Shown here: in pieces, positions 1,782 through 30,780 of the stretch
Layout: the number at the start of each line of letters is the position of its first letter
Position numbering within the stretch: the stretch's first letter is position 1
Source of the DNA: Thunnus maccoyii
Lineage: Eukaryota; Chordata; Actinopteri; Scombriformes; Scombridae
Direction of reading: 5' to 3'
Assembly: GCF_910596095.1 (NCBI RefSeq)
Contig: NC_056539.1
Location: 27,488,501-27,552,500 of the forward strand
DNA length: 64,000 bases
Notes under the pieces: model-generated
What the model was told of the DNA's origin: nothing
Database searches by the model: none
Seen by the model: the letters and a program-made list of their open reading frames with translations, nothing else
Position numbers and translations under genes: made by a program

Positions 1782-3282
1782 ATGGTAGAGACACTGGAAC
1801 AAGCAGAGCTCTGCACCCTTCCCCTCAACACCTCCTGCACATCAACACCTGTTTCTCCCAAAGCCATGCTCATCAAAACACTACTGTACTGCATTGCTCT
1901 GCTTACCATGACGCTCAACCTGTTGGTTGTAATCTCCATCTGTCACTTCAGGCACAGCTCTTTTTCTTGAATTATATTAACTGGTCATGTGTAATAGCAT
2001 GTAAAGGTGTTGGGGCAGATTAACTTTTAGTGGAAAGAGCTCAAAATCAGTTTTCATAAAATTATGCTTTTTTTAAATTCTATGCTATAAGACCAACTTT
2101 GGCTATTTGTCCACCTTGCATACAAGCTTTTTGAATGTGTTTTTAAGAAAACTAAAACAAGCTTAAGGTCTTAGTGCTTTAACTGGTAAATGAAAATGTC
2201 ATTCTTAATGAGCTTATCTGTATAAAGGTGTCACAATAGCAGTAGTCATGATAATCTCCATATCTGCCCAGCAGAAAGCGTTAAGATTAACTTTGCATGT
2301 TAAGATTAACTTTGCATGTTAAGATTTTTTTTTTTTTTTATTGTTGTAAAATATTCTGCAGTCTCACAATATTCGCTGTGATCTAACCTCATTTTCATTG
2401 TGTCATGGGCTGAATGTGAGGCATGTGGGGATACTATCACTAATCGGCATAATCATAATCTCTCACTCCAGGCAGCTCCACACCTCCACCAATGTCCTCC
2501 TCCTCTCCCTGGCTGTGTCTGACTTGCTTGTGGGCCTTGCAGTGATGCCAGCTGCAATCGCTACCCTGCAGTCCTGCTGGTTTCTGGAGGAAATTACATG
2601 TGCTCTCTGGTTCTTGTTGAGCTTTATCCTCACCTCCTCCTCTGTTGGAAGCATGGTGCTCATATCAGTGGATCGTTACGTGGCCATTTGTGCCCCTCTG
2701 CACTATTCTTCCATGATAACGCCAAGAAGAGCTAAAATCTGTGTGTCTTTGTGTTGGATCTGTTCTGTTATCTACAACTTCATAATACTAAAAGATCACT
2801 TGTTACAAACAGATATGTTAAATCCCTGCCCCCAAGAATGTACACTTATCATAAGCTACATTTCAGGGGCAGTAGACTTTATTCTGACCTTTTTCAGCCC
2901 TGTTACTGTTATCATAGTTCTCTATATGAGAGTGTTTGTGGTGGCTGTGTCACAGGCACGTGTCATGCGGTCTCAAATTGTAGCAGACAAATCAAGAACT
3001 CTGACTGTAGTTGCAAAGAAATCTGAGATGAGGGCTGCTAGAACTCTTGGCATTGTCTTACTTGTGTTCATACTTTGTTTATGTCCGTACTACTGTCCTT
3101 TTCTAGCAGGACAGGACACCACAGATGATGGTTCATCCGCTCAACTTTGGCTATTTTATTGTAACTCCAGTTTAAATCCTCTGATCTATGCCTTTTTCTA
3201 CCCCTGGTTTAGAAAAGCTATTAAACTCATTTTCAGCCTTCAAATACTGCAGCCAGGTTCCTGTGAGGCCAAGATAATGTAG
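1782..3282 (+). CDS. TAAR gene 1: trace amine-associated receptor, two exons, 326 aa
   Basis: Class A GPCR of the TAAR family, expected in the plasma membrane of olfactory sensory neurons where teleost TAARs detect amines. Exon 1 (1782-1951) encodes the N-terminus with an NTS sequon (residues 16-18) and TM1. Exon 2 (2472-3282) encodes the rest. The intron (1952-2471) splits an Arg codon in phase 2 and starts with GC. Visible landmarks are D74 (2.50), C100 (3.25), D124-R125-Y126, D192 (5.42), P200 (5.50), W283 (7.40), Y286 (7.43) and the NSSLNPLIY...WFRK signature. The classical amine-binding Asp3.32 is replaced by S107, and the TM6 CWxP motif reads CLCP. The start is the only ATG opening the frame and is shared by all seven copies. 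A possible poly(A) signal lies at 3956-3961. The conserved upstream block of the other copies is mostly missing. Family assignment is strong; ligand and expression are inferred. Confidence 0.93.
1952..2471 (+). other. GC-AG intron of TAAR gene 1
   Basis: The donor reads TTCAG|GCACAG and the acceptor CTCCAG|GCAGCT. Joining at these points restores the FRQLHTSTN sequence expected at the TM1 to TM2 loop. No GT donor keeps this frame nearby. The last 74 bases stay open in the exon 2 frame and resemble the end of TM1. A poly-T tract lies near 2325-2339. Confidence 0.8.
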
Positions 3283-6564: not shown

Positions 6565-8519
6565 CTGCGCAGCTGGCCATGGCAGCGAACAGTCTTGGTG
6601 TGTTGGGCATCACAGCAGCAAATACACCGCTGTTACACCGCATGAATTGAATTTCTGGGTCACACCATCGGTCGGATTAACAACCTCGTTTTTATGTGTG
6701 GTGACTGTTGCAGGACGAGCTCACGTCACGTGTGGTTGGGACTCACTACCCTACAGAGGAAGGACAGAGAGGACCTCCTAGGAGCTCCCATGTCGCTGGA
6801 CGATCCCATCGGATCCTCACCCAACCAGTGCAGCGCACCTCCCTGGGAAATGGTGACGTGGTTATATCCATACACAGAAATAATGCCACGCACCCACACA
6901 CTGACAGGAGTGAGGAAATTTCATGTCTGCTTAGTGTCGGCTCTGTCTCCCGCTGTTCACACCGCCCTGCTTGGGACCGGCGTATACAGCACTCCACTTG
7001 GGGTTACGTTAGCGTGGCTGATGGTGTTACTTCATCAAGGAGATAAATCTATCCTCCCAAGAGGAAATAGATTTTCTCTCCAAAGAGATCCAGGACCTGT
7101 TATCGAAACAGGCTGTCTTAGTCTTTCCCGCTCACGACAGACAGAAAGGGTTTTACTCCACGTACTTCCTGGTTCCCAAGAAGATAGGATGTTTCAGACC
7201 CATTTTGGATCTCTGGATTCTGAACCAATGTATCGCCAGATAGACATTCCGCATGCTGACCATCAGGATATTGCTGGCACTGATTTACCCAGGCAACTGG
7301 TTCACCACCATCAGCCTGAAAGATGCGTATTTCACGTTGAGGTGGTGCCAAAACAGAGGAAGTTCCTGTGTTTCGCCTTCCTGGGGACAGCCTACAAGTA
7401 CAACAAGCTACAGTTCAGCTACTCCCTGGATCCCTGCATGTTCAGCAAGTGTGTGGACATGGCTCTGCAACCGCTGAGCAACCGTGGCATGAGGGTCTTC
7501 TTCTACTTAGACAACCTCATTGTCATGGCCAGGTCCAGATATTGGACCATTTTCCACACTGCCAGACTGGTGCTGCACCTAACTCAGGTAGGCTTTGCCA
7601 TCAACTGGAGAGTCCCCAGCCTACAGGCAGAATATCTGGGGGTTGTGCTTGATTCGGCCAGGCTACACGCTGTTCTGTCAGAAGCCAGAAGGCAGTCCTC
7701 AGACTGCGGTGGGGAGTGGTAGTGAAAACTTTGACTGTCATGCAGGCATTGGGGCTCATGGAAGTGAGCCATCCAGCTATTCCACTGGGGCTCCTGCACA
7801 TGCACTGCCTGCAACAGTGGTTTGCCAGCTCCACAGAGGCACAAGCATCGCTTGGTGAAGTGAGGGAGTGGCTGGTAAAGCCCTATCCAAGAAGCGCCTA
7901 GCTAGTTGGTTTTGTGAGTGCATCTCCCGAGCCTACAGGCAGGCAAGTAAGGATCCCCCACTGTGTTCCAAGCGCATTCCACACATGGTGTGGCAGTGCT
8001 TACGGCCTTGTTCGGTGGGGTAAGTGTCAAAGACATATGCACGGCGGCATCCTGGTCTACGCCTTGTCCATTCATAAGGTTCTATCTCTTGGACATGATG
8101 GGCTCCTTTTCAAGGTCCATGTTCGCAGGTGCAACTCAGGACTTGTGAAAAGGGTGGTGTGTGTGTCAGCTGTGTTTACCTGACCCCCCCGGGCAAATAT
8201 ATGCCGGCATTCTCCCGTGATCCAAGAGGACTCTAGGAATGGGGTGTACAAGGTCCTCAGTATATGACCTATGACCCCTGTGAGGTTAGGTCATTTTTTT
8301 CACCCAGCTCCGGTCCATGTTAACTGGACTGGGTTGGGCCCCCTACTGCTCCGCTAAGTGGCTGGGATTATAAAGGGGCCACAGCAACTAAACCTGTGGT
8401 TGGCTGGGCTCAGTGAGGCAGTCTGATGATGTGGCGTGGCAGGGTGTACATTCTTCAGGCTCCGCCTACTGCACCCATAGAGTCCAGTAGAGGGCAGAGC
8501 CCGTGTGAGATAGAACGAA

Positions 8520-9752: not shown

Positions 9753-11245
9753 ATGGTAGAGACACTGAAACAAGCAGAGCTCTGCACCCTTCCCCTCAAC
9801 ACCTCCTGTATGTCAACGCCTGTTTCTACCAAAGCCACGCTCATCAAAACGCTGCTGTACTGCATCGCTCTGTTCACTGTGATACTCAACCTGTTGGTTG
9901 TAATCTCCATCTCTCATTTCAGGCACAGATGCTTTTTTTTTAAATCGTTACAGCTGGTAGAGTGTAAGAACAGGTAGAGGTGTTTAACTGGTGGTTTAAC
10001 TGTTTGTTAAAAGAATTGAGCATCAATTTTCATAAAATGAAATTTATGCTTTTTTAAATTCTATGCTATAAGACCAACTTTGGCTACTTGTCCACCCTGC
10101 ATACAAGCTTTTTGAATGTGTTTCTAAAAAGCTAAAACAGGCTAAAGATCGTAATACATTAACTTGTAAATGAAAATGTCATTCTTAATGGGCTTCTCTG
10201 TATAAAGGTGTCAGAATGGCAGTAGTCATGATAATCTCCATTTCTGCTAAACAGAAAGTGTGAAGATTTATTTTGCATGTTGAGTTTGGTTTTCATATTG
10301 TGTCTATGAAAGTAAAATATTCTGTTTTCTCACAATATTTGCTTCGATCTAACCTCATTTTCATTGTGTCATGGATTGAATATGATGAACATGAGGATAC
10401 TATCACTAATCAGCATAATCATAATCTCTCACTCCAGGCAGCTTCACACCTCCACCAATGTCTTCCTCCTCTCCCTGGCTGTGTCTGACTTGCTTGTGGG
10501 CCTTGCAGTGATGCCAGCTGCAATTGCCCTGCACTCCTGCTGGTTTCTGGATGAAATCACATGTGCTCTCTCATTCTTGTTGAGCTTTATCCTCACATCC
10601 TCCTCTGTTGGAAGCATGGTGCTCATATCAGCTGACCGTTACGTGGCCATTTGTGCCCCTCTGCACTATTCTTCCATGATAACGCCAAGAAGAGCTAAAA
10701 TCTGTGTGTCTTTGTGTTGGATCTGTTCTGTTATCTACAACTTCATAATACTAAAAGATCACTTGTTACAAATAGATATGTTAAATCCCTGCCCCCAAGA
10801 ATGTACACTTATCATAAGCTACATATCAGGGGCAGTAGACTTTATTCTGACCTTTTTCAGCCCTGTTACTGTTATCATAGTTCTCTATATGAGAGTGTTT
10901 GTGGTGTCTGTGTCACAGGCACGTGTCATGCGGTCTCAAATTGTAGCTGTCAAATCAAGAACTCTGACTGTAGTTGCAAAGAAATCTGAGATGAGGGCTG
11001 CTAGAACTCTTGGCATTGTCCTACTTGTGTTTATACTTTGTTTATGTCCATACTACTGTCCTTCTCTAGCAGGACAGGACACCACATTTGATGGTTCATT
11101 CGCTCAACTTTGGCTATTTTATTGTAACTCCAGTTTAAATCCTCTGATCTATGCCTTTTTCTACCCCTGGTTTAGAAAAGCCATTAAACTCATTTTCACC
11201 TTTCAAATACTGCAGCCAGGTTCCTGTGAGGCCAAGATAATGTAG
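9753..11245 (+). CDS. TAAR gene 2: trace amine-associated receptor, two exons, 325 aa
   Basis: Exon 1 is 9753-9922 and exon 2 is 10438-11245, around a 515-base GC-AG intron. Splicing gives an intact receptor with the TAAR TM7 signature. It is one residue shorter than gene 1 because ATLQS at the TM2 end reads ALHS here. Position 3.32 is S106, D191 stands at 5.42 and Y285 at 7.43. The residue before DRY is Ala where the other copies have Val, and the TM5 end reads VVSVSQ. The gene is preceded by the full proximal upstream block, unlike gene 1, and lies directly behind the nested mobile elements. Function is inferred as an olfactory amine-type receptor; no ligand can be assigned. Confidence 0.93.
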
Positions 11246-14001: not shown

Positions 14002-15460
14002 ATGGTAGAGACACTGGAACGAACAGAGCTCTGCACCCTTCCCCTTAACACCTCCTGCACGTCGACGCCTGTTTCTCCCAAAGTCATGCTCATCAAAACA
14101 CTGCTGTACTGCATCGCTCTGCTCACTGTGACGCTCAACCTGTTGGTTGTAATCTCCATCTGTTACTTCAGGTACAGATGCTTTTATTTAATTATTAAGG
14201 CTGGTAATGTGTAATGGTGTTGGGGCAGTTTAACTTTTAGTGGAAAGAACTCAACATCAGTTTTCATAAATTATGCTCTCTCAAATTCTGTTATTAGACC
14301 AACTTTGGCTATTGGTCCACCCTGTATAAAGTATAAGCTCTTTGAATGTGTTTTTAAAAAATTAAAACAAGCTAAAGATCTTACTACTTTAACTTGTAAA
14401 TGAAAATGTCATTCTTAATGAGATTAAAGATGTCACAATAGCAGTAGTCATGATAATCTCTTTTTCTGCCAAACAGAAAGTGTAGAGATTTATTTTGCAT
14501 TTAAAGTATGTTTTTATATTGTTGTAAAATATTCTCTATTCTCAGAGTATTTGCTGTGATCTAACTTCATGGTCATTGTGTCATGGACTGAATATGAGGA
14601 ACATGATGATACTACCACTAATCAGCATAATCATAATCTCCCATTGCAGGCAGCTTCACACCTCCACCAATGTCTTCCTCCTCTCCCTGGCTGTGTCTGA
14701 CTTGTTTGTGGGCCTTGTACTGATGCCAACTTCAGTTGCCACGCTGCAGTCCTGCTGGTTTCTTGATAAAATTACATGTGCTCTCTGGATCTTGTTGAGC
14801 TCTATTCTCACCTCCTCCTCTGTTGGAAACATGGTGCTCATATCAGTTGACCGTTACGTGGCCATTTGTGCCCCTCTGCACTATTCTTCCATGATAACGC
14901 AAAGAAGAGCTAAAATCTGTGTGTCTTTGTGTTGGATCTGTTCTGTTATCTACAACTTCATAATACTAAAAGATTTCTTGTTACAAACAGATATGTTAAA
15001 GTTCTGCTCCCAAGAATGTACATTTATCATAAGTTACATATCAGGGGCAGTAGACTTTATTCTGACCTTTTTTTGTCCTGTTACTGTTATCATAGTTCTC
15101 TATATGAGAGTGTTTGTGGTGGCTGTGTCACAGGCACGTGTCATGCGGTCTCAAATTGTAGCTGACAAATCAAGAACTCTGACTGTAGTTGCAAAGAAAT
15201 CTGAGATGAGGGCTGCTAGAACTCTTGGCATTATCCTACTTGTGTTTATACTTTGTCTCTGTCCATACTACTGTCCTTTTCTAGCAGGACAGGACATCAC
15301 AGATGATGGTTCATCACCTGAAGTTTGGCTTTTTTGTTGTAACTCCACTTTAAATCCTCTGATTTATGCCTTTTTCTACCCCTGGTTTAGAAAAGCCATT
15401 AAACTCATTGTCAGCCTTCAAATACTGCAGCCAGGTTCCTGTGAGGCCAAGATAATGTAG
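14002..15460 (+). CDS. TAAR gene 3: trace amine-associated receptor, two exons, 326 aa
   Basis: Exon 1 is 14002-14171 and exon 2 is 14650-15460. The 478-base intron is the only one of the seven with a canonical GT donor (TTCAG|GTACAG). This is the most diverged copy: TM2 reads LVLMPTSVATL, TM3 has SSILTSSSVGNM, and position 7.43 is Cys (C286) where others have Tyr, His or Phe. S107 is at 3.32 and D192 at 5.42. The gene looks intact. A Ty3/gypsy fossil lies upstream, and the AP-1-like upstream site present in other copies is altered here. Receptor role inferred from family. Confidence 0.93.
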
Positions 15461-17240: not shown

Positions 17241-17671
17241 GATCCTGGGGGTTCTCTCTCTCTCAAGGTATAGGGACTAACATGGTGGCTGGGACAACCA
17301 TCATTTTATTATGGGGTGGTTTATGTCATCTATGGACAGTATTTACTGCTATTTGTATTGAATGGATTCTGGTCTGGACTAAATTTTAATTGGAACCTGC
17401 TCAGAGTTGTGTGGTTTGACATTCATAGGGGCTTTTTCTTTGGTAGACAGTAGTAGTTCTGTGACATTTAGTGTTTTCTTTAACACGGTTTTATTATGTC
17501 CATCTTGGCAATGTCTGGACAATAACTAGACAAATAAGGATAAGGAGGAAAACCAGGGTGTGAGTGGTGAGGATAAATACTGTTTGAAAGAGGGAATGAA
17601 TGATGAAATGGGGAAAGGAGCAAAAATTGGTGAGAAGGAGGAGTTGGGGGGAAACAGATGGGAGTGTGTTA

Positions 17672-17766
17672 AATAAGTTAGATAACTGATGTCATGAAGA
17701 AGTGAGTCAGAGGGCTGCTAGACCTCATCAGCTCTCTGTTCAGATCTGTAGTCACTTCCTCTGACG
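17672..17766 (+). promoter_or_regulatory. Conserved proximal upstream block of TAAR gene 4
   Basis: TGATGTCAT (17687-17695) and TGAGTCA (17703-17709) stand at the same spacing as in gene 2. The equivalent block precedes genes 5, 6 and 7 with almost no change. Regulatory role inferred. Confidence 0.4.
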
Positions 17767-19248
17767 ATGGTAGAGACACTGAAACAAGCAGAAATCTGCA
17801 CCCTTCCCCTCAACACCTCCTGCACGTCAACGCCTGTTTCTACCAAAGCCACGCTCATCAAAACACTGCTGTACTGCATCGCTCTGCTCACTGTGATACT
17901 CAACCTGTTGGTTGTAATCTCCATCTCTCATTTCAGGCACAGATGCTTTCCTTGAATTATTACAGCTGGTAGTGTGTAATAACAGGTAGCAGTGTTGGGG
18001 TGGTTTAACTGTTAGGTAAAAGAATTGAACATCAGTTTTCATAAAATTATGCTTTTTTAAATTCTATGATATAAGACCAACTTTGGCCCTTAGTCCACCC
18101 TGCATACAAGCTTTTTGAATGTGTTTCTAAAAAGCTAAAACAGGCTAAAGATCTTAATACATTAACTTGTAAATGAAAATGTCATTCTTAATGGGCTTCT
18201 CTGTATAAAGGTGTCAGCATGACAGTAGTCATGATAATCTCCATTTCTGCTAAACAGAAAGTGTGAAGATTTATTTTGCATGTTGAGTTTGGTTTTCATA
18301 TTGTGTCTATGACAGTAAAATATTCTGTTTTCTCAGAGTATTTGCTTTGATCTAACTTCATTTTCATTGTGTCATGGACTGAATATGATGAATATGAGGA
18401 TACTATCACTAATCAGCATAAACATAATCTCTCACTCCAGGCAGCTTCACACCTCCACCAATGTCTTCCTCCTCTCCCTGGCTGTGTCTGACTTGCTTGT
18501 GGGCCTTGCAGTGATGCCAGCTGCAATTGCCCTGCACTCCTGCTGGTTTCTGGATGAAATCACATGTGCTCTCTCATTCTTGTTGACCTTTATCCTCACA
18601 TCCTCCTCTGTCGGAAGCATGGTGCTCATATCAGTGGATCGTTATGTGGCCATTTGTGCCCCTCTGCACTATTCTTTCATGATAATGCCAAGAAGAGCTA
18701 AAATCTGTGTGTCTTTGTGTTGGATCTGTTCTGTTCTCTACAACTTCATAATACTAAAAGATCACTTGTTACAAATAGATATGTTAAATCCCTGCCCCCA
18801 AGAATGTACACTTATCATAAGCTACATATCAGGGGCAGTAGACTTTATTCTGACCTTTTTCTGCCCTGTTACTGTTATCATAGTTCTCTATATGAGAGTG
18901 TTTGTGGTGGCTGTGTCACAGGCACGTGTCATGCGATCTCAAATTGTAGCTGTCAAATCAAGAACTCTGACTGTAGTTGTAAAGAAATCTGAGATGAGGG
19001 CTGCTAGAACTCTTGGCATTGTCCTACTTGTGTTTATACTTTGTTTATGTCCATACTACTGTCCTTCTCTAGCAGGACAGGACAAGACAGTTGATGGTTC
19101 ATCACCTGCAGTTTGGCTTTTTTATTGTAACTCCAGTTTAAATCCTCTGATCTATGCCTTTTTCTACCCCTGGTTCAGAAAATCAATTAAACTCATTGTC
19201 AGCCTTCAAATACTGCAGCCAGGTTCCTGTGAGGCCAAGATAATGTAG
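17767..19248 (+). CDS. TAAR gene 4: trace amine-associated receptor, two exons, 325 aa
   Basis: Exon 1 is 17767-17936 and exon 2 is 18441-19248, with a 504-base GC-AG intron. Position 3.32 is T106 (LLTFILTSSS), with D191 at 5.42 and Y285 at 7.43. The second intracellular loop reads FMIMPRR and the TM6-TM7 loop GQDKTVDGSSP; both are shared with gene 6 but not with the intervening gene 5. An AATAAA at 19500-19505 may be its poly(A) signal. Intact; ligand unknown. Confidence 0.93.
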
Positions 19249-20542
19249 AAAATAGCCATATACTGTATATAAACTGACTTATTTTATCAAGGTGAATTCA
19301 GTTTGATTGAAGATGAAGTAAATTTGTTTTGTTTTGTCAACTGTACACATCAGTTCAGAATACTTTTTAAAGAACACAGTGAAACAATGGTGTTGTGACA
19401 TCCAGTAAATATATTAACTTGGGAAAGACAGCAAAAAGATCATGTGTTGTATCCAGAGTGTCGAGAATCCCTGATAAATGCAACGATTATGTAGAAAAGA
19501 ATAAAACTGATAAGTATCCACATCTGTGTGAAAGCTTTTTCCATCCTTGTATGCACAAACTAAAATACATTGTTGTGAAATTGGTGTTGTGATATAAAAG
19601 GCCAAATTGATATTTTTATCAGGACACTGAACAGTAGAATAAATATTCAAATACTAAATAATGAAGACAGTAAAAACTGACTAATTGCAAAACAAAACAA
19701 AAAATATAGCTTTTTTGTGATGTATTCATAATTCCTAGTGTTTAGGAATTTTATTGTTTTTACAATTAAGTAATATATTTGAACTTTGAATAATACAAGA
19801 CACTATGGTGCATGATACAACCACAACTAGTGAAGTGAAATTGTCCAGACTGTTGAAAGCTCCTTATAGACCTTTTTTCACAGAAAACATTTGGACATGT
19901 TACAGTAAGAAGATGTAAATAATAAAAGGAATGATGGCTGAATCCCATTTAGTTGCTTTGATTTCAGGGTTGTCTGAACCTTTACATATAATAGACTCTG
20001 AGTAATCATTATTATATAATCTGGCCTTTTATTACTCAACCAAAAATTATAAAGATAATTTTAAAGCAATAGAAAGACTAAGAATAATTAAAATATGTTT
20101 CACATAAACTTCATTGTCACCAAACACCGGCTGCTGTAGGTTGTAGTGCAGGTTTCCTATTAGAAAAGGTAAATCAGTAATAGACGTTCAGTCTTCATGG
20201 TCCTGTCTGTTTAATGGTCTGACTAAAAATCAAACTGCATGGAATAAAGTTGACATGTCCATAAAAATTAAACAAATTTTTGTGTGGCATATTTAGGTTC
20301 GATCGACTGCTGATATTATTGAAACTCACAATGTTCTACACCTTGTAGAATGGACATTCTCAAAATAAGAAAATTAAAAGTTCACATGCCATGATTCCTT
20401 CAGTTACCAGTTCAACACTACTAAACATATAGACATACACTGAAGTTTTTAAGTAAAAGAAAATTGTCAACACTGATGTTTATACAGAGGTGGCGTTGTA
20501 ATGTTTCACAGATTTCATTCAATTTTTAGTACTGTTAAAAAA

Positions 20543-23500
20543 GATCCTGGGGGTTCTCTCTCTCTCAAGGTGTAGGGACTAACATGGTGGCTGGGACAAC
20601 CATCATTTTATTATGGGGTGGTTTATGTCATCTATGGACAGTATTTACTGCTATTTGTATTGAATGGATTCTGGTCTGGACTAAATTTTAATTGGAACCT
20701 GCTCAGAGTTGTGTGGTTTGACATTCATAGGGGCTTTTTCTTTGGTAGACAGTAGTAGTTCTGTGACATTTAGTGTTTTCTTTAACACAGTTTTATTATG
20801 TCCATCTTGGCAATGTCTGGACAATAACTAGACAAATAAGGATAAGGAGGAAAACCAGGGTGTGAGTGGTGAGGATAAATACTGTTTGAAAGAGGGAATG
20901 AATGATGAAATGGGGAAAGGAGCAAAAATTGGTGAGAAGGAGGAGTTGGGGGGAAACAGATGGGAGTGTGTTAAATAAGTTAGATAACTGATGTCATGAA
21001 GAAGTGAGTCAGAGGGCTGCTAGACCTCATCAGCTCTCTGTTCAGATCTGTAGTCACTTCCTCTGACAATGGTAGAGACACTGAAACAAGCAGAAATCTG
21101 CACCCTTCCCCTCAACACCTCCTGCACGTCAACGCCTGTTTCTACCAAAGCCATGCTCATCAAAACACTGCTGTACTGCATCGCTCTGCTCACTGTGATA
21201 CTCAACCTGTTGGTTGTAATCTCCATCTCTCATTTCAGGCACAGATGCTTTCCTTGAATTATTACAGCTGGTAGTGTGTAATAACAGGTAGCAGTGTTGG
21301 GGTGGTTTAACTGTTAGGTAAAAGAATTGAACATCAGTTTTCATAAAATTATGCTTTTTTAAATTCTATGATATAAGACCAACTTTGGCCCTTAGTCCAC
21401 CCTGCATACAAGCTTTTTGAATGTGTTTCTAAAAAGCTAAAACAGGCTAAAGATCTTAATACATTAACTTGTAAATGAAAATGTCATTCTTAATGGGATT
21501 CTCTGTATAAAGGTGTCAGCATGACAGTAGTCATGATAATCTCCATTTCTGCTAAACAGAAAGTGTGAAGATTTATTTTGCATGTAGAGTTTGGTTTTCA
21601 TATTGTGTCTATAAAAGTAAAATATTCTGTATTCTGACAATATTTGCTTTGATCTTACTTCATGTTCATTGTGTCATGGACTGAATATGAGGCACGTGAA
21701 AATACTATCACTAATCAGCATAATCATAATCTCTCACTCCAGGCAGCTTCACACCTCCACCAATGTCCTCCTCCTCTCCCTGGCTGTGTCTGACTTGTTT
21801 GTGGGCCTTGCAATGATGCCAGCTGCAATTGCCCTGCACTCCTGCTGGTTTCTGGATGAAATCACATGTGCTCTCTCATTCATGTTGACCTTTATCCTCA
21901 CATCCTCCTCTGTCGGAAGCATGGTGCTCATATCAGTGGATCGTTATGTGGCCATTTGTGCCCCTCTGCACTATTCTTCCATGATAACACCAAGAAGAGC
22001 TAAAATCTGTGTGTCTTTGTGTTGGATCTGTTCTGTTCTCTACAACTTCATAATACTAAAAGATTTCTTGTTACAAACAGATATGTTAAATCCCTGCCCC
22101 CAAGAATGTACACTTATCATAAGCTACATATCAGGGGCAGTAGACTTTATTCTGACCTTTTTCAGCCCTGTTACTGTTATCATAGTTCTCTATATGAGAG
22201 TGTTTGTGGTGGCTGTGTCACAGGCACGTGTCATGCGGTCTCAAATTGTAGCTGACAAATCAAGAACTCTGACTGTAGTTGTAAAGAAATCTGAGATGAG
22301 GGCTGCTAGAACTCTTGGCATTGTCCTACTTGTGTTTATACTTTGTCTCTGTCCATACTACTGTCCTTCTCTAGCAGGACAGGACAACACAGTTGATGGT
22401 TCATTCGCTCAACTTTGGCTATTTCATTGTAACTCCAGTTTAAATCCTCTGATCTATGCCTTTTTCTACCCCTGGTTTAGAAAATCAATTAAACTCATTG
22501 TCAGCCTTCAAATACTGCAGCCAGGTTCCTGTGAGGCCAAGATAATGTAGAAAATAGCCATATACTGTATATAAACTGGCTTATTTTATCAAGGTGAATT
22601 CAGTTTGATTGAAGATGAAGTAAATTTGTTTTGTTTTCTCAACTGTACACATCAGTTCAGAATACTTTTTAAAGAACACAGTAAAATGATGGTGTTGTGA
22701 CATCCAGTAAATATATTAACTTGGGAAAGACAGCAAAAAGATCATGTGTTGTGTCCAGAGGGTCGAGAATCCCTGATAAATGCAATGATTATGTAGAAAA
22801 GAATAAAACTGATAAGTATCCACATCTGTGTGAAAGCTTTTTCCATTCTTGTACGCACAAACTAACATACATTGTTGTGAAATTGGTGTTGTGATATAAA
22901 AGGCCAAATTGATATTTTTATCAGGACACTGAACAGTAGAATAAATATTCAAATACTAAATAATGAAGACAGTAAAAACTGACTAATTGCAAAACAAAAC
23001 AAAAAATATAGCTTTTTTGTGATGTATTCATAATTCCTAGTGTTTAGGAATTTTATTGTTTTTACAGTTAAGTAATATATTTGAATTTTGAATAATACAA
23101 GACACTACGGTGCATGATAAAACCACAACTAGTGAAGTGAAATTGTCCAGACTGTTGAAAGCTCCTTATAGACCTTTTTTCACAAAAAACATTTGGACAT
23201 GTTACAGTAAGAAGATGTAAATAATAAAATGAATGATAGCTGAATCCCATTTAGTTAATATGATTTCAGGGTTGTCTGAACCTTTACATACAATAGTCTC
23301 TGTGTAATCATTATTATATAATCTGGCCTTTTATTACTCAACCAAAAATTATAAAGATATTTTTAAAGCAACAGGAAGACTAAGAATAATTAAAATATGT
23401 TTCACATAAGCTTCATTGTCACCAAACACCGGCTGCTGTAGGTTGTAGTGCAGGTTTCCTATTAGAAAAGGGAAATCAGTAATAGACGTTCAGTCTTCAT

Positions 23501-23844
23501 GGTCCTGTCTGTTTAATGGTCTGACTAAAAATCAAACTGCATGGAATAAAGTTGACATGTCCATAAAAATTAAACAACTTTTTTTGTGGCATATTTAGGT
23601 TTGATCGACTGCTGATATTATTGAAACTCACAATGTTCTACACCTTGTAGAATGGACATTCTGAAAATAAGAAAATTAAAAGTTCACATGCCATGATTCC
23701 TTCAGTTACCAGTTCAACACTACTAAACATATAAACACACACTGAAGTTTTTAAGTAAAAGAAAATTGTCAACACTGATGTTTATACAGAGGTGGCGTTG
23801 TAATGTTTCACACATTTCCTTCAAGTTTTAGTACTGTTAAAAAA
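20543..23844 (+). repeat. 3.3-kb tandem unit carrying TAAR gene 5
   Basis: Same length (about 3302 bases) and layout as the preceding unit, starting at the same junction motif. The similarity includes noncoding flanks and intron, so the copies are recent or homogenised. Confidence 0.9.
21069..22550 (+). CDS. TAAR gene 5: trace amine-associated receptor, two exons, 325 aa
   Basis: Exon 1 is 21069-21238 and exon 2 is 21743-22550, with a 504-base GC-AG intron. Position 7.43 is His (H285), unique in the cluster and in a position that normally faces the binding pocket. T106 is at 3.32 and D191 at 5.42. TM3 has Met (FMLTF) where gene 4 has Leu. The TM6-TM7 loop ends SFAQLWLF, like genes 2 and 7 rather than its neighbours. 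The frame is open throughout. Confidence 0.93.
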
Positions 23845-26800
23845 GATCCTGGGGGTTCTCTCTCTCTCAATGTATAGGGACTAACATGGTGGCTGGGACA
23901 ACCATCATTTTATTATGGGGTGGTTTATGTCATCTATGGACAGTATTTACTGCTATTTGTATTGAATGGACTCTGGTCTGGACTAAATTTTAATTGGAAC
24001 CTGCTCAAAGTTGTGTGGTTTGACATTCATAGGGGCTTTTTCTTTGGTAGACAGTAGTAGTTCTGTGACATTTAGTGTTTTATTTAACATAGTATTATTA
24101 TGTCCATCTTAGCAATGTCTGGACAATAACTAGACAAATAAGGATAAGGAGGAAAACCAGGGTGTGAGTGGTTAGGATAAATATTGTTTGAAAGAGGGAA
24201 TGAATGATGAAATGGGGAAAGGAGCAAAAATTGGTGAGTAGGAGGAGTTGGGGGGGAAAAACAGATGGGAGTGTGTTAAATAAGTTAAATAACTGATGTC
24301 ATGAAGAAGTGAGTCAGAGGGCTGCTAGACCTCATCAGCTCTCTGTTCAGATCTGTAGTCACTTCCTCTGACGATGGTAGAGACACTGAAACAAGCAGAG
24401 CTCTGCACCCTTCCCCTCAACACCTCCTGCACGTCAACGCCTGTTTCTACCAAAGCCACGCTCATCAAAACACTGCTGTACTGCATCGCTCTGCTCACTG
24501 TGATACTCAACCTGTTGGTTGTAATCTCCATCTCTCATTTCAGGCACAGATACATTCCTTGAATTATTACAGCCAGTAGTGTGTAATAACAGGTAGCAGT
24601 GTTGGGGTGGTTTAACTGTTAGGTAAAAGAATTGAACATCAGTTTTCATAAAATTATGCTTTTTTAAATTCTATGATATCAGACGAACTTTGGCCCTTAG
24701 TCCACCCTGCATACAAGCTTTTTGAATGTGTTTCTAAAAAGCTAAAACAGGCTAAAGATCTTAATACATTAACTTGTAAATGAAAATGTCATTCTTAATG
24801 GGCTTCTCTGTATAAAGGTGTCAGCATGACAGTAGTCATGATAATCTCCATTTCTGCTAAACGGAAAGTGTGAAGATTTATTTTGCATGTAGAGTTTGGT
24901 TTTCATATTGTGTCTATAAAAGTAAAATATTCTGTTTTCTGACAATATTTGCTTTGATCTTACTTCATGTTCATTGTGTCATGGACTGATTATGAGGCAC
25001 GTGAAAATACTATCACTAATCAGCATAATCATAATCTCTCACTCCAGGCAGCTTCACACCTCCACCAATGTCCTCCTCCTCTCCCTGGCTGTGTCTGACT
25101 TGTTTGTGGGCCTTGCAATGATGCCAGCTGCAATTGCCCTGCACTCCTGCTGGTTTCTGGATGAAATCACATGTGCTCTCTCATTCTTGTTGACCTTTAT
25201 CCTCACATCCTCCTCTGTCGGAAGCATGGTGCTCATATCAGTGGATCGTTATGTGGCCATTTGTGCCCCTCTGCACTATTCTTTCATGATAATGCCAAGA
25301 AGAGCTAAAATCTGTGTGTCTTTATGTTGGATCTGTTCTGTTATCTACAACTTCATAATACTAAAAGATCACTTGTTACAAATAGATATGTTAAATCCCT
25401 GCCCCCAAGAATGTACACTTATCATAAGCTACATATCAGGGGCAGTAGACTTTATTCTGACCTTTTTCAGCCCTGTTACTGTTATCATAGTTCTCTATAT
25501 GAGAGTGTTTGTGGTGGCTGTGTCACAGGCACGTGTCATGCGGTCTCAAATTGTAGCTGACAAATCAAGAACTCTGACTGTAGTTGCAAAGAAATCTGAG
25601 ATGAGGGCTGCTAGAACTCTTGGCATTGTCCTACTTGTGTTTATACTTTGTTTATGTCCATACTACTGTCCTTCTCTAGCAGGACAGGACAAGACAGTTG
25701 ATGGTTCATCACCTGAAGTTTGGCTTTTTTATTGTAACTCCAGTTTAAATCCTCTGATCTATGCCTTTTTCTACCCCTGGTTCAGAAAATCAATTAAACT
25801 CATTGTCAGCCTTCAAATACTGCAGCCAGGTTCCTGTGAGGCCAAGATAATGTAGAAAATAGCCAAATACTGTATATAAACTGACTTATTTTATCAAGGT
25901 GAATTCAGTTTGATTGAAGATGAAGTAAATTTGTTTTGTTTTGTCAACTGAACACATCAGTTCAGAATACTTTTTAAAGAACACAGTAAAACGATGGTGT
26001 TGTGACATCCAGTAAATATATTAACTTGGGAAAGACAGCAAAAAGATCATGTGTTGTATCCAGAGTGTCGAGAATCCCTGATAAATGCAACGATTATGTA
26101 GAAAAGAATAAAATTGATAAGTATCCACATCTGTGTGAAAGCTTTTTCCATCCTTGTATGCACAAACTAAAATACATTGTTGTGAAATTGGTGTTGTGAT
26201 ATAAAAGGCCAAATTGATATTTTTATCAGGACACTGAACAGTAGAATAAATATTCAAATACTAAATAATGAAGACAGTAAAAACTGACTAATTGCAAAAC
26301 AAAACAAAAAATATAGCTTTTTTGTGATGTATTCATAATTCCTAGTGTTTAGGAATTTTATTGTTTTTACAATTAAGTAATATATTTGAACTTTGAATAA
26401 TACAAGACACTACGGTGCATGATACAACCACAACTAGTGAAGTGAAATTGTCCAGACTGTTGAAAGCTCCTTATAGACCTTTTTTCACAGAAAACATTTG
26501 GACATGTTACAGTAATAAGATGTAAATAATAAAAGGAATGATGGCTGAATCCCATTTAGTTGCTTTGATTTCAGGGTTGTCTGAACCTTTACATATAATA
26601 GACTCTGAGTAATCATTATTATATAATCTGGCCTTTTATTACTCAACCAAAAATTATAAAGATAATTTTAAAGCAATAGGAAGACTAAGAATAATTAAAA
26701 TATGTTTCACATAAGCTTTATTGTCACCAAACACCGGCTGCTGTAGGTTGTAGTGCAGGTTTCCTATTAGAAAAGGGAAATCAGTAATAGACGTTCAGTC

Positions 26801-27149
26801 TTCATGGTACTGTCTGTTTAATGGTCTGGCTAAAAATCAAACTGCATGGAATAAAGTTGACATATCCATAAAAATTAAAAAAAAAAATTGTGCAGCATAT
26901 TCAGTTTTGATGGACTGCTGATATTATTGACACTCACAATGTTCTACACCTTGTAGAATGGACATTCTCAAAATAAGAAAAATAAAGTTCACATGCCATG
27001 ATTCCTTCAGTTACCAGTTCAACACTACTAAACATATAAACACACACTGAAGTTTTTAAGTAAAAGAAAATTGTCAACACTGATGTTTATACAGAGGTGG
27101 CGTTGTAATGTTTCACAGATTTCCTTCAATTTTTAGTACTGTTAAAAAA
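23845..27149 (+). repeat. 3.3-kb tandem unit carrying TAAR gene 6
   Basis: About 3305 bases, same junctions at both ends. The only length differences from the other units are small indels. Confidence 0.9.
24374..25855 (+). CDS. TAAR gene 6: trace amine-associated receptor, two exons, 325 aa
   Basis: Exon 1 is 24374-24543 and exon 2 is 25048-25855, with a 504-base GC-AG intron. The protein is a mosaic. TM2 (SDLFVGLAMMPA) matches gene 5, while from the second intracellular loop onward (FMIMPRR, HLLQIDML, DKTVDGSSP) it matches gene 4. T106, D191 and Y285 occupy 3.32, 5.42 and 7.43. Intact reading frame. Confidence 0.93.
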
Positions 27150-30100
27150 GATCCTGGGGGTTCTCTCTCTCTCAAGGTATAGGGACTAACATGGTGGCTG
27201 GGACAACCATCATTTTAGTATGGGGTGGTTTATGTCATCTATGGACAGTATTTACTGCTATTTGTATTGAATGGATTCTGGTCTGGACTAAATTTTAATT
27301 GGAACCTGCTCAGAGTTGTGTGGTTTGACATTCATAGGGGCTTTTTCTTTGGTAGACAGTGGTAGTTCTGTGACATTTAGTGTTTTCTTTAACACAGTTT
27401 TATTATGTCCATCTTGGCAATGTCTGAACAATAACTAGACAAATAAGGATAAGGAGGAAAACCAGGGTGTGAGTGATGAGGATAAATACTGTTTGAAAGA
27501 GGGAATGAATGATGAAATGGGGAAAGGAGCAAAAATTGGTGAGTAGGAGGAGTTGGGGGGGAAACAGATGGGAGTGTGTTAAATAAGTTAAATAACTGAT
27601 GTCATGAAGAAGTGAGTCAGAGGGCTGCTAGACCTCATCAACTCTCTGTTCAGATCTGTAGTCACTTCCTCTGACGATGGTAGAGACACCGAAACAAGCA
27701 GAAATCTGCACCCTTCCCCTCAACACCTCCTGCACGTCAACGCCTGTTTCTACCAAAGCCACGCTCATCAAAACGCTGCTGTACTGCATCGCTCTGCTCA
27801 CTGTGATACTCAACCTGTTGGTTGTAATCTCCATCTCTCATTTCAGGCACAGATACATTCCTTGAATTATTACAGCTAGTAGTGTGTAATAACAGGTAGC
27901 AGTGTTAGGGTGGTTTAACTTTTAGGTAAAAGAATTTAACATCAGTTTTCATAAATTTAAGCTTTTTTAAATTCTATGCTATAAGACCAACTTTGGCCCT
28001 TAGTCCATCCTTGCATACAAGCTTTTTGAATGTGTTTCTAAAAAGCTAAAACAGGCTAAAGATCTTAATACATTAACTTGTAAATGAAAATGTCATTCTT
28101 AATGGGCTTCTCTGTATAAAGGTGTCACAATAGCAGTAGTCATGATAAGCTCCATTCTGCTAAACAGAAAGTGTGAAGATTTATTTTGCATGTAGAGTTT
28201 GGTTTTCATATTGTGTCTATAAAAGTAAAATATTCTGTTTTCTGACAATATTTGCTTTGATCTTACTTCATGTTCATTGTGTCATGGACTGATTATGAGG
28301 CACGTGAAAATACTATCACTAATCAGCATAATCATAATCTCTCACTCCAGGCAGCTTCACACCTCCACCAATGTCCTCCTCCTCTCCCTGGCTGTGTCTG
28401 ACTTGCTTGTGGGCCTTGCAGTGATGCCAGCTGCAATCGCCACGCTGCAGTCCTGCTGGTTTCTGGGTGAAATCACATGTGCTCTCTGGTTCTTGTTTAG
28501 CTGTATCCTCACCTCCTCCTCTATTGGAAGCATGGTGCTCATATCAGTGGATCGTTACGTGGCCATTTGTGCCCCTCTGCACTATTCTTCCATGATAACG
28601 CCAAGAAGAGCTAAAATCTGTGTGTCTTTGTGTTGGATCTGTTCTGTTATCTACAACTTCATAATACTAAAAGATTTCTTGTTACAAATAGATATGTTAA
28701 ATCCCTGCCCCCAAGAATGTACACTTATCATAAGCTACATAGCAGGGGCAGTAGACTTTATTCTGACCTTTTTCAGCCCTGTTACTGTTATTATAGTTCT
28801 CTATATGAGAGTGTTTGTGGTGGCTGTGTCACAGGCACGTGTCATGCGGTCTCAAATTGTAGCTGTCAAATCAAGAACTCTGACTGTAGTTGTAAAGAAA
28901 TCTGAGATGAGGGCTGCTAGAACTCTTGGCATTGTCCTACTTGTGTTTATACTTTGTTTATGTCCGTACTACTGTCCTTCTCTAGCAGGACAGGACACCA
29001 CAGTCGATGGTTCATTCGCTCAACTTTGGCTATTTTTTTGTAACTCCAGTTTAAATCCTCTGATCTATGCCTTTTTCTACCCCTGGTTCAGAAAATCAAT
29101 TAAACTTATTGCCAGCCTTCAAATACTGCAGCCAGGTTCCTGTGAGGCCAAGATAATGTAGAAAATAGCCATATACTGTATATAAACTGACGTATTTTAT
29201 CAAGGTGAATTCAGTTTGATTGAAGATGAAGTAAATTTGTTTTGTTTTGTCAACTGTACACATCAGTTCAGAATACTTTTTAAAGAACACAGTGAAACAA
29301 TGGTGTTGTGACATCCAGTAAATATATTAACTTGGGAAAGACAGCAAAAAGATCATGTGTTGTGTCCAGAGTGTCGAGAATCCCTGATAAATGCAATGAT
29401 TATGTAGAAAAGAATAAAACTGATAAGTATCCACATCTGCGTGAAAGCTTTTTCCATCCTTGTATGCACAAACTAACATAAATTGTTGTGAAATTGGTGT
29501 TGTGATATAAAAGGCCAAATTGATATTTTTATCAGGACACTGAACAGTAGAGTAAATATTCAAATACTAAACAATGAATACAGTGAAAACTGACTAATTG
29601 CAAAACAAAACAAAAAATATAGCTTTTTTGTGATGTATTCATAATTCCTAGTGTTTATGAATTTTGTTGTTTTTATAGTCAAGTAATATATTTGAATTTT
29701 GAATAATACAAGACACTACGGTGCATGATACAACCACAACTAGTGAAGTGAAATTGTCCAGACTGTTGAAAGCTCCTTATAGACCTTTTTTCACAGAAAA
29801 CATTTGGACATGTTACAGTAATAAGATGTAAATAATAAAAGGAATGATGGCTGAATCCCATTTAGTTGCTTTGATTTCAGGGTTGTCTGAACCTTTAAAT
29901 ACAATAGACTCTGTGTAATCATTATTATATAATCTGGCCTTTTATTACTCAAGAAAACGCAGAAATACGCAGAAATTTTTCTAGACACAAGAAGAGTCAG
30001 AATTTTTTTACAGTGTTTCACAGAAGCTTTGTTGTGACTGAACACTGGCTGCTGTAGGTCGTAGTGCAGGTTTCCTATTAGAAAAGGGAAATCAGTAATA

Positions 30101-30458
30101 GACATTCAGTCTCCATGGTCCTGTCTGTTTAATGGTCTGACTAAAAATCAAACTGCATGGAATAAAGTTGACATCTCCATAAAAATTAAACAATTTTTTG
30201 TGCGGCATATTTAGTTTTGATGGACTGCTGATATTATTGACACTCACAATGTTCTACACCTTGTAGAATGGACATTCTCAAAATAAGAAAAATAAAGTTA
30301 ACATGCCATGATTCCTTCAGTTACCAGTTCAGCACTACACAAACATATAAACACACACTGAAGTTTTTAAGAAAAAGAAAATTGTCAACAATGATGTTTA
30401 TACAGAGGGGTGTTTAATGTTTCACAGATTTTCTTCAGCTTCTGAGACTGTTAAAAAA
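27150..30458 (+). repeat. 3.3-kb tandem unit carrying TAAR gene 7 (last unit)
   Basis: About 3309 bases. It begins at the shared junction, but its right end reads AAAAAAGATCTGGCAAA and continues into unique flank, so this is the distal end of the array. Confidence 0.85.
27677..29161 (+). CDS. TAAR gene 7: trace amine-associated receptor, two exons, 326 aa
   Basis: Exon 1 is 27677-27846 and exon 2 is 28351-29161, with a 504-base GC-AG intron. The flanks and intron resemble genes 4-6, but the first part of exon 2 keeps the longer ATLQS form of genes 1 and 3. Position 3.32 is S107 (LFSCILTSSSIG), D192 stands at 5.42 and F286 at 7.43. It is the last receptor of the array and lies tail to tail with the FNDC7-like gene, about 1.6 kb from that gene's poly(A) signal. 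Intact. Confidence 0.93.
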
Positions 30459-30780
30459 GATCTGGCAAATGGTTCACAAAATGAGAAGTCATATAGTACA
30501 TCAAAAAGAAAATATACTGCATGGTTTTAAAAAATATTGCTTGATAAATTATCACTTTATTTGTTTACACTACTTTCAGTTTAATAATCAACCAGATAAT
30601 CTAATAACCTTCCTCAAAAATAGAACCATTTTTGATAAATATAATTTCATCAATACTTAGACAGATAAAATGCCACATGCTGCTATGATACCAGCCACAA
30701 TTATGATAATGTATATAACCTATTGCTATCAAAGATTTATAAGTATTCCAATCTAAAGTTCTCCTCATGTTTGATCTTAA
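30459..30780. other. Intergenic sequence between TAAR gene 7 and the FNDC7-like gene
   Basis: AT-rich, no gene. It is homologous to the end of the TAAR gene 1 flank (about 5030-5350) and marks the shared ancestral right edge of a TAAR unit. Confidence 0.7.

Follow-up and report, generated by a model that had tools for sequence, protein, structure and literature searches.

A GC-AG intron of fish TAAR genes whose donor may descend from the Arg-Gln codons of an intronless ancestor

To our knowledge, intron gain is very rare in vertebrates, and the source of a gained intron can seldom be traced. Two-exon TAARs of fish were reportedly already described by Hussain in 2009. TAAR genes are called intronless save TAAR2 in one passage of the literature (PMC4786312), and the sections on gene structure in Azzouzi 2015 (PMC4415300) describe cichlid TAARs with two exons, interrupted within the first inner loop where Phe and Arg meet, count genes of this kind in stickleback, medaka, fugu and tetraodon with none in zebrafish, and propose a gain. 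The genes analyzed here resemble those of cichlids and other fish in having two coding exons, the same ICL1 site and a probable intron gain. Those sections call the intron phase 0, whereas the GC/GT...AG ends found here read as phase 2; the CAGG repeat allows the boundary to be placed in more than one way, of which phase 2 seems correct in this case. The same sections contain no mention of GC donors or of the origin of the intron, and among the matches listed in a literature search conducted mostly outside subscription journals, no title or beginning of an abstract was recognized as dealing with a GC donor in the TAAR intron or with how this intron was born.

A comparable birth is summarized for ATP2A1 (Hellsten 2011, via passages in PMC4974935 and PMC3443670), where a duplicated junction gave both the donor and the acceptor, the protein stayed unchanged, and acceptor-like sequence was present in the exon beforehand, as appears to be the case for the TAAR intron. 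The two differ in that the junction motif is AGGT there and AGGC here, and in that no long duplicated body is recognizable here. The break-repair introns of Daphnia, as outlined in PMC3443670 (compare PMC11782384), likewise carry a short direct repeat at both ends, whereas here the repeat consists of coding codons acting as a GC donor. GC-AG introns as treated in parts of PMC7242645 share with the TAAR intron a weak GC donor in the first intron, but that source cites conversion of GT to GC, whereas the opposite direction is indicated for the TAARs.

The window, that is, the whole stretch of 64,000 nucleotides of Thunnus maccoyii DNA analyzed here, carries seven tandem two-exon TAAR genes of class III type in its first 30 kb (W1-W7, hereafter genes 1-7; Table 1). 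The spliced product of gene 1 comprises 326 aa and matches Pfam 7tm_1 (E 1.6e-45), and its best PDB matches are named TAAR13d, 13e, 13a and 13c, with TAAR1 next. The TM7 fingerprint of TAARs, NSxxNPxxYxxxYxWF, is present in gene 1 (CNSSLNPLIYAFFYPWF), and a Ser stands at the place of Asp 3.32, as determined by hand count back from DRY; class III TAARs are said, after Hussain 2009, to be without this aminergic Asp. The fingerprint and the Ser thus fit class III, and gene 1 is predicted to be a class III-type TAAR, a member of the rhodopsin family nearest to TAARs, with the ICL1 intron present at HF-R. In HFRQLH, the intron falls in phase 2 within the codon for Arg, the frame pointing to an exon that ends in CACTTCAG, an intron running from GC to CAG and a second exon opening with G CAG CTC.

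Table 1. TAAR gene features in the window (positions counted from its first letter; a slash marks a splice junction)
Feature	Positions	Strand	Remarks
Gene 1, exon 1, N-terminus and TM1	1782..1951	+	Ends CACTTCAG; start is the first of three in-frame ATGs
Gene 1, intron, phase 2	1952..2471	+	GC donor; 520 nt; splicing read from the frame
Gene 1, left repeat copy, donor CAG/GCA	1949..1954	+	GCAC here; GCAG in 13/28 introns
Gene 1, right repeat copy, acceptor side CAG/GCAG	2469..2475	+	
Gene 1, last 24 nt of intron	2448..2471	+	14/21 free positions equal exon 1 end
Gene 1, exon 2, TM2 to stop	2472..3282	+	
Gene 1, internal TM1-like stretch (VTIAVVMIISIS)	2230..2265	+	Equals acceptor end in TM1 match
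Gene 2, intron	9923..10437	+	GC donor
Gene 3, intron	14172..14649	+	GT donor
Gene 4, intron	17937..18440	+	GC donor
Gene 5, intron	21239..21742	+	GC donor
Gene 6, intron	24544..25047	+	GC donor
Gene 7, intron	27847..28350	+	GC donor

A whole-genome search identified 29 modelled TAARs on two chromosomes that are interrupted at one identical place, comprising the seven genes of the window, two copies upstream on the same chromosome (L009 and L010) and twenty genes modelled on another chromosome. An earlier note on this DNA had proposed alignment with intronless TAARs as a check; within this genome, twelve intronless relatives, located on three chromosomes, read straight through the intron site. 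L066, in which the end of exon 1 is deleted, was excluded from the donor counts, which therefore cover 28 introns; L027 and L066, both with broken frames, were excluded from the trees, the fragments L065, L067, L068 and L069 lie outside the models, and the subfamily tests were run on chosen members rather than on all 29 genes. Intron presence requires one change by parsimony on both the protein tree (39 rows) and the DNA tree (37 rows, with L074 and L031b left out); in the DNA tree, one intronless group lies in an unresolved fork beside the intron genes. By parsimony within this genome, the intron would have been gained once, in an intronless ancestor. It is neither young nor local, but old and already known. 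The features expected of an intron born by tandem duplication, namely, intronless relatives, an apparently single gain and the same AGGY-containing sequence at both junctions, are found together here.

GC donors are rare, at about 1%, and G is not the preferred donor base at +4. Among the 28 TAAR introns, 22 have a GC donor and six a GT donor, the latter in gene 3 of the window (14172) and in L009, L010, L024, L032 and L064. The first four intron bases are GCAG in 13 introns, GCAC in six, GTAC in three, GCAT and GTAG in two each, and GCAA and GTAA in one each. On both trees, an ancestral GC donor costs three steps compared with five for GT, so that, by parsimony, GC may be taken as the ancestor, with about three separate changes to GT. 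The reconstructed ancestral intron starts with GCAGAGATAAAC and opens with the same four letters as exon 2 (GCAGCTCC); past GCAG, the reconstructed intron start and exon 2 share only scattered letters. This GCAG corresponds to the final base of the former Arg codon plus the old Gln codon, and it recurs at the acceptor junction. Given the rarity of GC donors and the unusual G at +4, the agreement with the Gln codon is informative and supports the suggestion of the earlier note that the odd GC donor is simply the old codon. This origin is better supported by the other copies than by the window itself, where the donors have since drifted away to GCAC or GTAC. CAGGCAG borders the intron on both sides, as duplication at birth predicts; CAG/G at both junctions is largely forced by the splice consensus, which leaves only a short stretch of the repeat as informative. 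In the intronless L028, the Arg codon is AGA, not AGG. As a separate observation, L032 and L064 form a subgroup with short introns (83 and 132 bases) and CAA/GT donors.

On the acceptor side, the 25 bases ending in CAGGCA had been claimed to match the donor side at 20 of 25 positions in genes 4-7. This figure was recovered for genes 5, 6 and 7, and also for genes 1 and 2, with gene 4 at 19/25 and gene 3, which has the GT donor, at 16/25. With the forced NAG removed, the match over the 21 free positions is 14 in genes 1, 2, 5, 6 and 7, 13 in gene 4 and 11 in gene 3. None of 37 real acceptors used as controls, from 29 fibronectin type III (FN3) exons of the window and eight collagen exons (one of 30 FN3 hits, without AG, and one of nine collagen hits, nested in another, were dropped), equals the window genes, except gene 3, which is equalled by 2/37. 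Simulated acceptors gave p values of 0.0004-0.0006 for genes 1, 2, 5, 6 and 7, 0.003 for gene 4 and 0.03 for gene 3, and over a shorter stretch of 14 positions, the match is reached by 1/37 controls with p about 0.01 (9/37 for gene 3), in a test that is post hoc and with controls poorer in A than the TAAR introns. The excess is clear only in the window lineage. In other subfamilies, it is weak or absent, with p of 0.03-0.25 over 21 positions in L011, L016, L021 and L023, 0.70-0.86 in the L012 group, and 0.19 and 0.95 in the short-intron genes L032 and L064, respectively.

The end of exon 1 itself is pyrimidine-rich (15-19/22 in the 14 genes scored). When exonic AGs are ranked as acceptors, it comes first or second among 43-50 in L028, L029, L030 and L033 (the scored AG lying one base further on in the last three) and sixth of 46 in the intronless L031a; in nine intron genes with the exons joined, it ranks second to sixth in eight and 15th in L064. 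An exon 1 end that is already acceptor-like makes a chance resemblance of acceptors to it likelier, and the controls take account of this. The window acceptors score low on the controls' model (4.2 vs a mean of 12.9).

In the protein-tree reconstruction, the match is 14/21 at the root of the window lineage but drops to 10/21 in the common ancestor of all introns, where the ungapped ancestral acceptor side is reached by 6/37 controls (p 0.09). A match inherited from birth should grow going back in time, so its shrinkage counts against a surviving copy. When one codon gap is allowed, an option added post hoc, the ancestral intron end reaches 14/21 (0/37 controls, p 0.008), L016, L021 and L023 reach 15, 14 and 13 (0/37 controls each), L011 and L032 reach 12 (4/37 controls), and L064 and L012 reach 9 and 6. 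Five of the six changes that the tree places on the window lineage land on the exon's base, as would be natural if this lineage kept the old state. The window lineage is nested in the protein tree, where grouping all other intron genes together is not rejected (AU p 0.242), and the DNA tree weakly prefers it as basal to the other intron genes (60/39); it could be the deepest branch, which would favor a tandem copy as the source of the acceptor.

At the protein level, the intron end read in the exon 2 frame had been proposed to encode a second TM1 end, matching the end of exon 1 at 8 of 14 residues. This count holds for genes 2, 5, 6 and 7 and falls to 7/14 in gene 4, 6/14 in gene 1, the copy to which the claim had been attached, and 5/14 in gene 3. 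The frame is open, as stated, for 41 codons upstream of the acceptor in all seven window genes, but contains a stop before the acceptor in the upstream copies L009 and L010. Among 46 receptor windows, TM1 is the top match of the intron ends in five of seven subfamilies; in the window subfamily, TM1 is third and the best window overlaps it, and in L012 it is 24th. Of 111 control readings, 16% place TM1 third or better, as do 19% of 160 windows from inside the introns. The best peptide registers range over 0-20 codons; L016, L017 and L026 all have +3. The consensus of the nine C7 introns matches TM1 best at an internal site, 192 bases upstream of the acceptor, with a score of 34 (p 0.03), and scores 35 to TM6; in single C7 copies, the acceptor end is the best TM1 match in 5/9 and the internal stretch in 4/9. 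Because the internal stretch matches TM1 equally well, the peptide match is not specific. Real acceptors in the window also often read open and hydrophobic. Such hydrophobic readings are cheap in these introns, and the peptide test lost its force on the registers and the internal stretch. The intron ends of nine copies show no codon-position bias, and thus no sign of coding use.

A screen of 16 introns against five targets with 100 shuffles each (80 tests) gave low p values for W3 and L011 to exon 2 (0.00) and for L016, L021 and L026 to exon 1 (0.01-0.02), along with wrong-strand values equally low for L019 and L032 (0.01-0.02). The L021/L026 alignments to exon 1 run almost collinearly (-78 to -27 in the intron, -67 to -15 in the exon), which is a hint. 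Among 26 windows, the end of exon 1 ranks second for the window lineage, first for L021, and 4th, 7th, 13th, 13th and 18th for the others. In end-anchored, ungapped comparison, the window lineage exceeds exon 2 stretches to 57 positions (26.3 vs 14.6, sd 3.3) and still at 87 positions (p 0.02). Local alignments of the 16 introns revealed no consistent longer match between the intron body and either exon, the hints being confined to the 3' end; of the tandem duplication spanning CAGGCAG that had been proposed, the repeat on both sides is supported, and no consistent longer exon copy was found. No mobile family was seen when two intron bodies were compared with the genome, in a search that skips very common words: they match TAAR copies only, one at nine places and the other at itself alone. 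There are no inverted repeats at the ends of the four introns examined.

On balance, we consider it probable that the intron was born with a duplication of CAGGCAG, through either tandem exon duplication or insertion with a short target duplication. The ICL1 intron of class III-type fish TAARs would have been gained once in an intronless ancestor, and the coding heptamer would have ended up on both sides, leaving the protein unchanged, with the left copy becoming the donor AG/GCAG out of the old Arg-Gln codons and the right copy the acceptor junction CAG/GCAG. Most copies would be spliced as GC-AG introns, to judge from the frame, and the weak GC donor would later have become GT about three times. 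The likeliest route may be that a stretch of exon ending near CAGGCAG was duplicated in tandem, because the TM1 end preceding it is already acceptor-like in intronless relatives and such a duplication would supply acceptor, tract and GC donor together; insertion or break repair with a short target duplication would be almost equally likely. Tandem duplication agrees with the TM1-like intron end seen in the window, which is nonetheless insufficient evidence for that route. We advance only tentatively, and as rather improbable in all its parts, a vertebrate intron born by tandem exon duplication at AGGC instead of AGGT, GC-AG from the start, with the old Arg-Gln codons as donor and the duplicated TM1 end as acceptor, the donor being kept through many duplications and upgraded to GT independently in separate lineages. 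Doubtful, too, is the special case in which the last 25-60 intron bases in the window are the surviving second TM1 end. The 14/21 matches in five window genes, the 0/37 controls for all but gene 3, the persistence to 57 and 87 positions, the first rank of TM1 in 5/7 subfamilies, the recurrent +3 register, the direction of the window-lineage changes and the possible basal place of that lineage argue for it, but the ancestral 10/21, the rank of TM1 in L012, the spread of registers, the internal stretch with its TM1 and TM6 scores and the lack of codon-position bias argue against it, as do positions -25 to -45, which match the own exon at 9/21 and the ancestral exon at 7/21, where growth going back is expected. 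The second-copy claim for the acceptor, covering both the 25-base and the TM1-like match, is unproven and not refuted, the place of the window lineage in the tree being uncertain.

Insertion of unrelated DNA, either a transposon or the filler of a staggered break, with a target duplication of 7-10 bases (CTYCAGGCAG) and a body that was never exon, is a serious contender, though not the outcome we expect. It explains the repeat equally well, accords with a short repeat without consistent homology beyond it, and follows a model published for Daphnia introns (outlined in PMC3443670); the matches of two intron bodies to TAAR copies only and the lack of inverted repeats in four introns weigh against it, weakly, as the event is old. 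Both insertion and the surviving TM1 copy overlap with the CAGGCAG duplication that we favor. An ordinary intron gain or slide, with later change of GT to GC and a polypyrimidine resemblance by chance, would account for CAG/G as consensus, for acceptors resembling a pyrimidine-rich exon 1 end and for the open, hydrophobic readings of real window acceptors, and conversion of GT to GC is cited in PMC7242645; this account is unlikely in our view, since GC is the cheaper ancestor and the ancestral G at +4 equals the codon though it is not the preferred donor base. That the intron end serves as an alternative coding exon supplying another TM1 is most improbable: with 41 open codons, the seven window genes would allow it, but gene 1 has no in-frame ATG there, and the stops in L009 and L010 together with the lack of third-position bias in nine copies led us to reject it.

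The TAAR family holds one gained intron in many parallel copies, with a donor that still spells the codons from which it may have come. Since the exon of intronless relatives already bears a good acceptor, the proposed birth could be rebuilt and tested in a minigene.

Several further features of the introns and of the window were observed. The 224-base intron of L017 has no stop in the exon 2 frame, and its exon 1 frame soon hits a stop. The close relatives L013 and L011 have introns of 1047 and 250 bases, pointing to an insertion or deletion inside the intron. Genes 4-7 (about 17600-30500) follow one another at intervals of 3302-3306 bases, and their coding blocks are 94-99% alike, suggesting a recent expansion of the array. 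Between genes 1 and 2, an ORF at 6646-7722 has a weak RVT_1 match (19.9 bits, under the curated cut-off) and is perhaps a retroelement fragment. On the minus strand, about 33800-62900, lies a long array of FN3-like exons, one stretch of which was checked in Pfam, with an AG acceptor in the same phase for 29/30 pattern hits; this array may be FNDC7-like.
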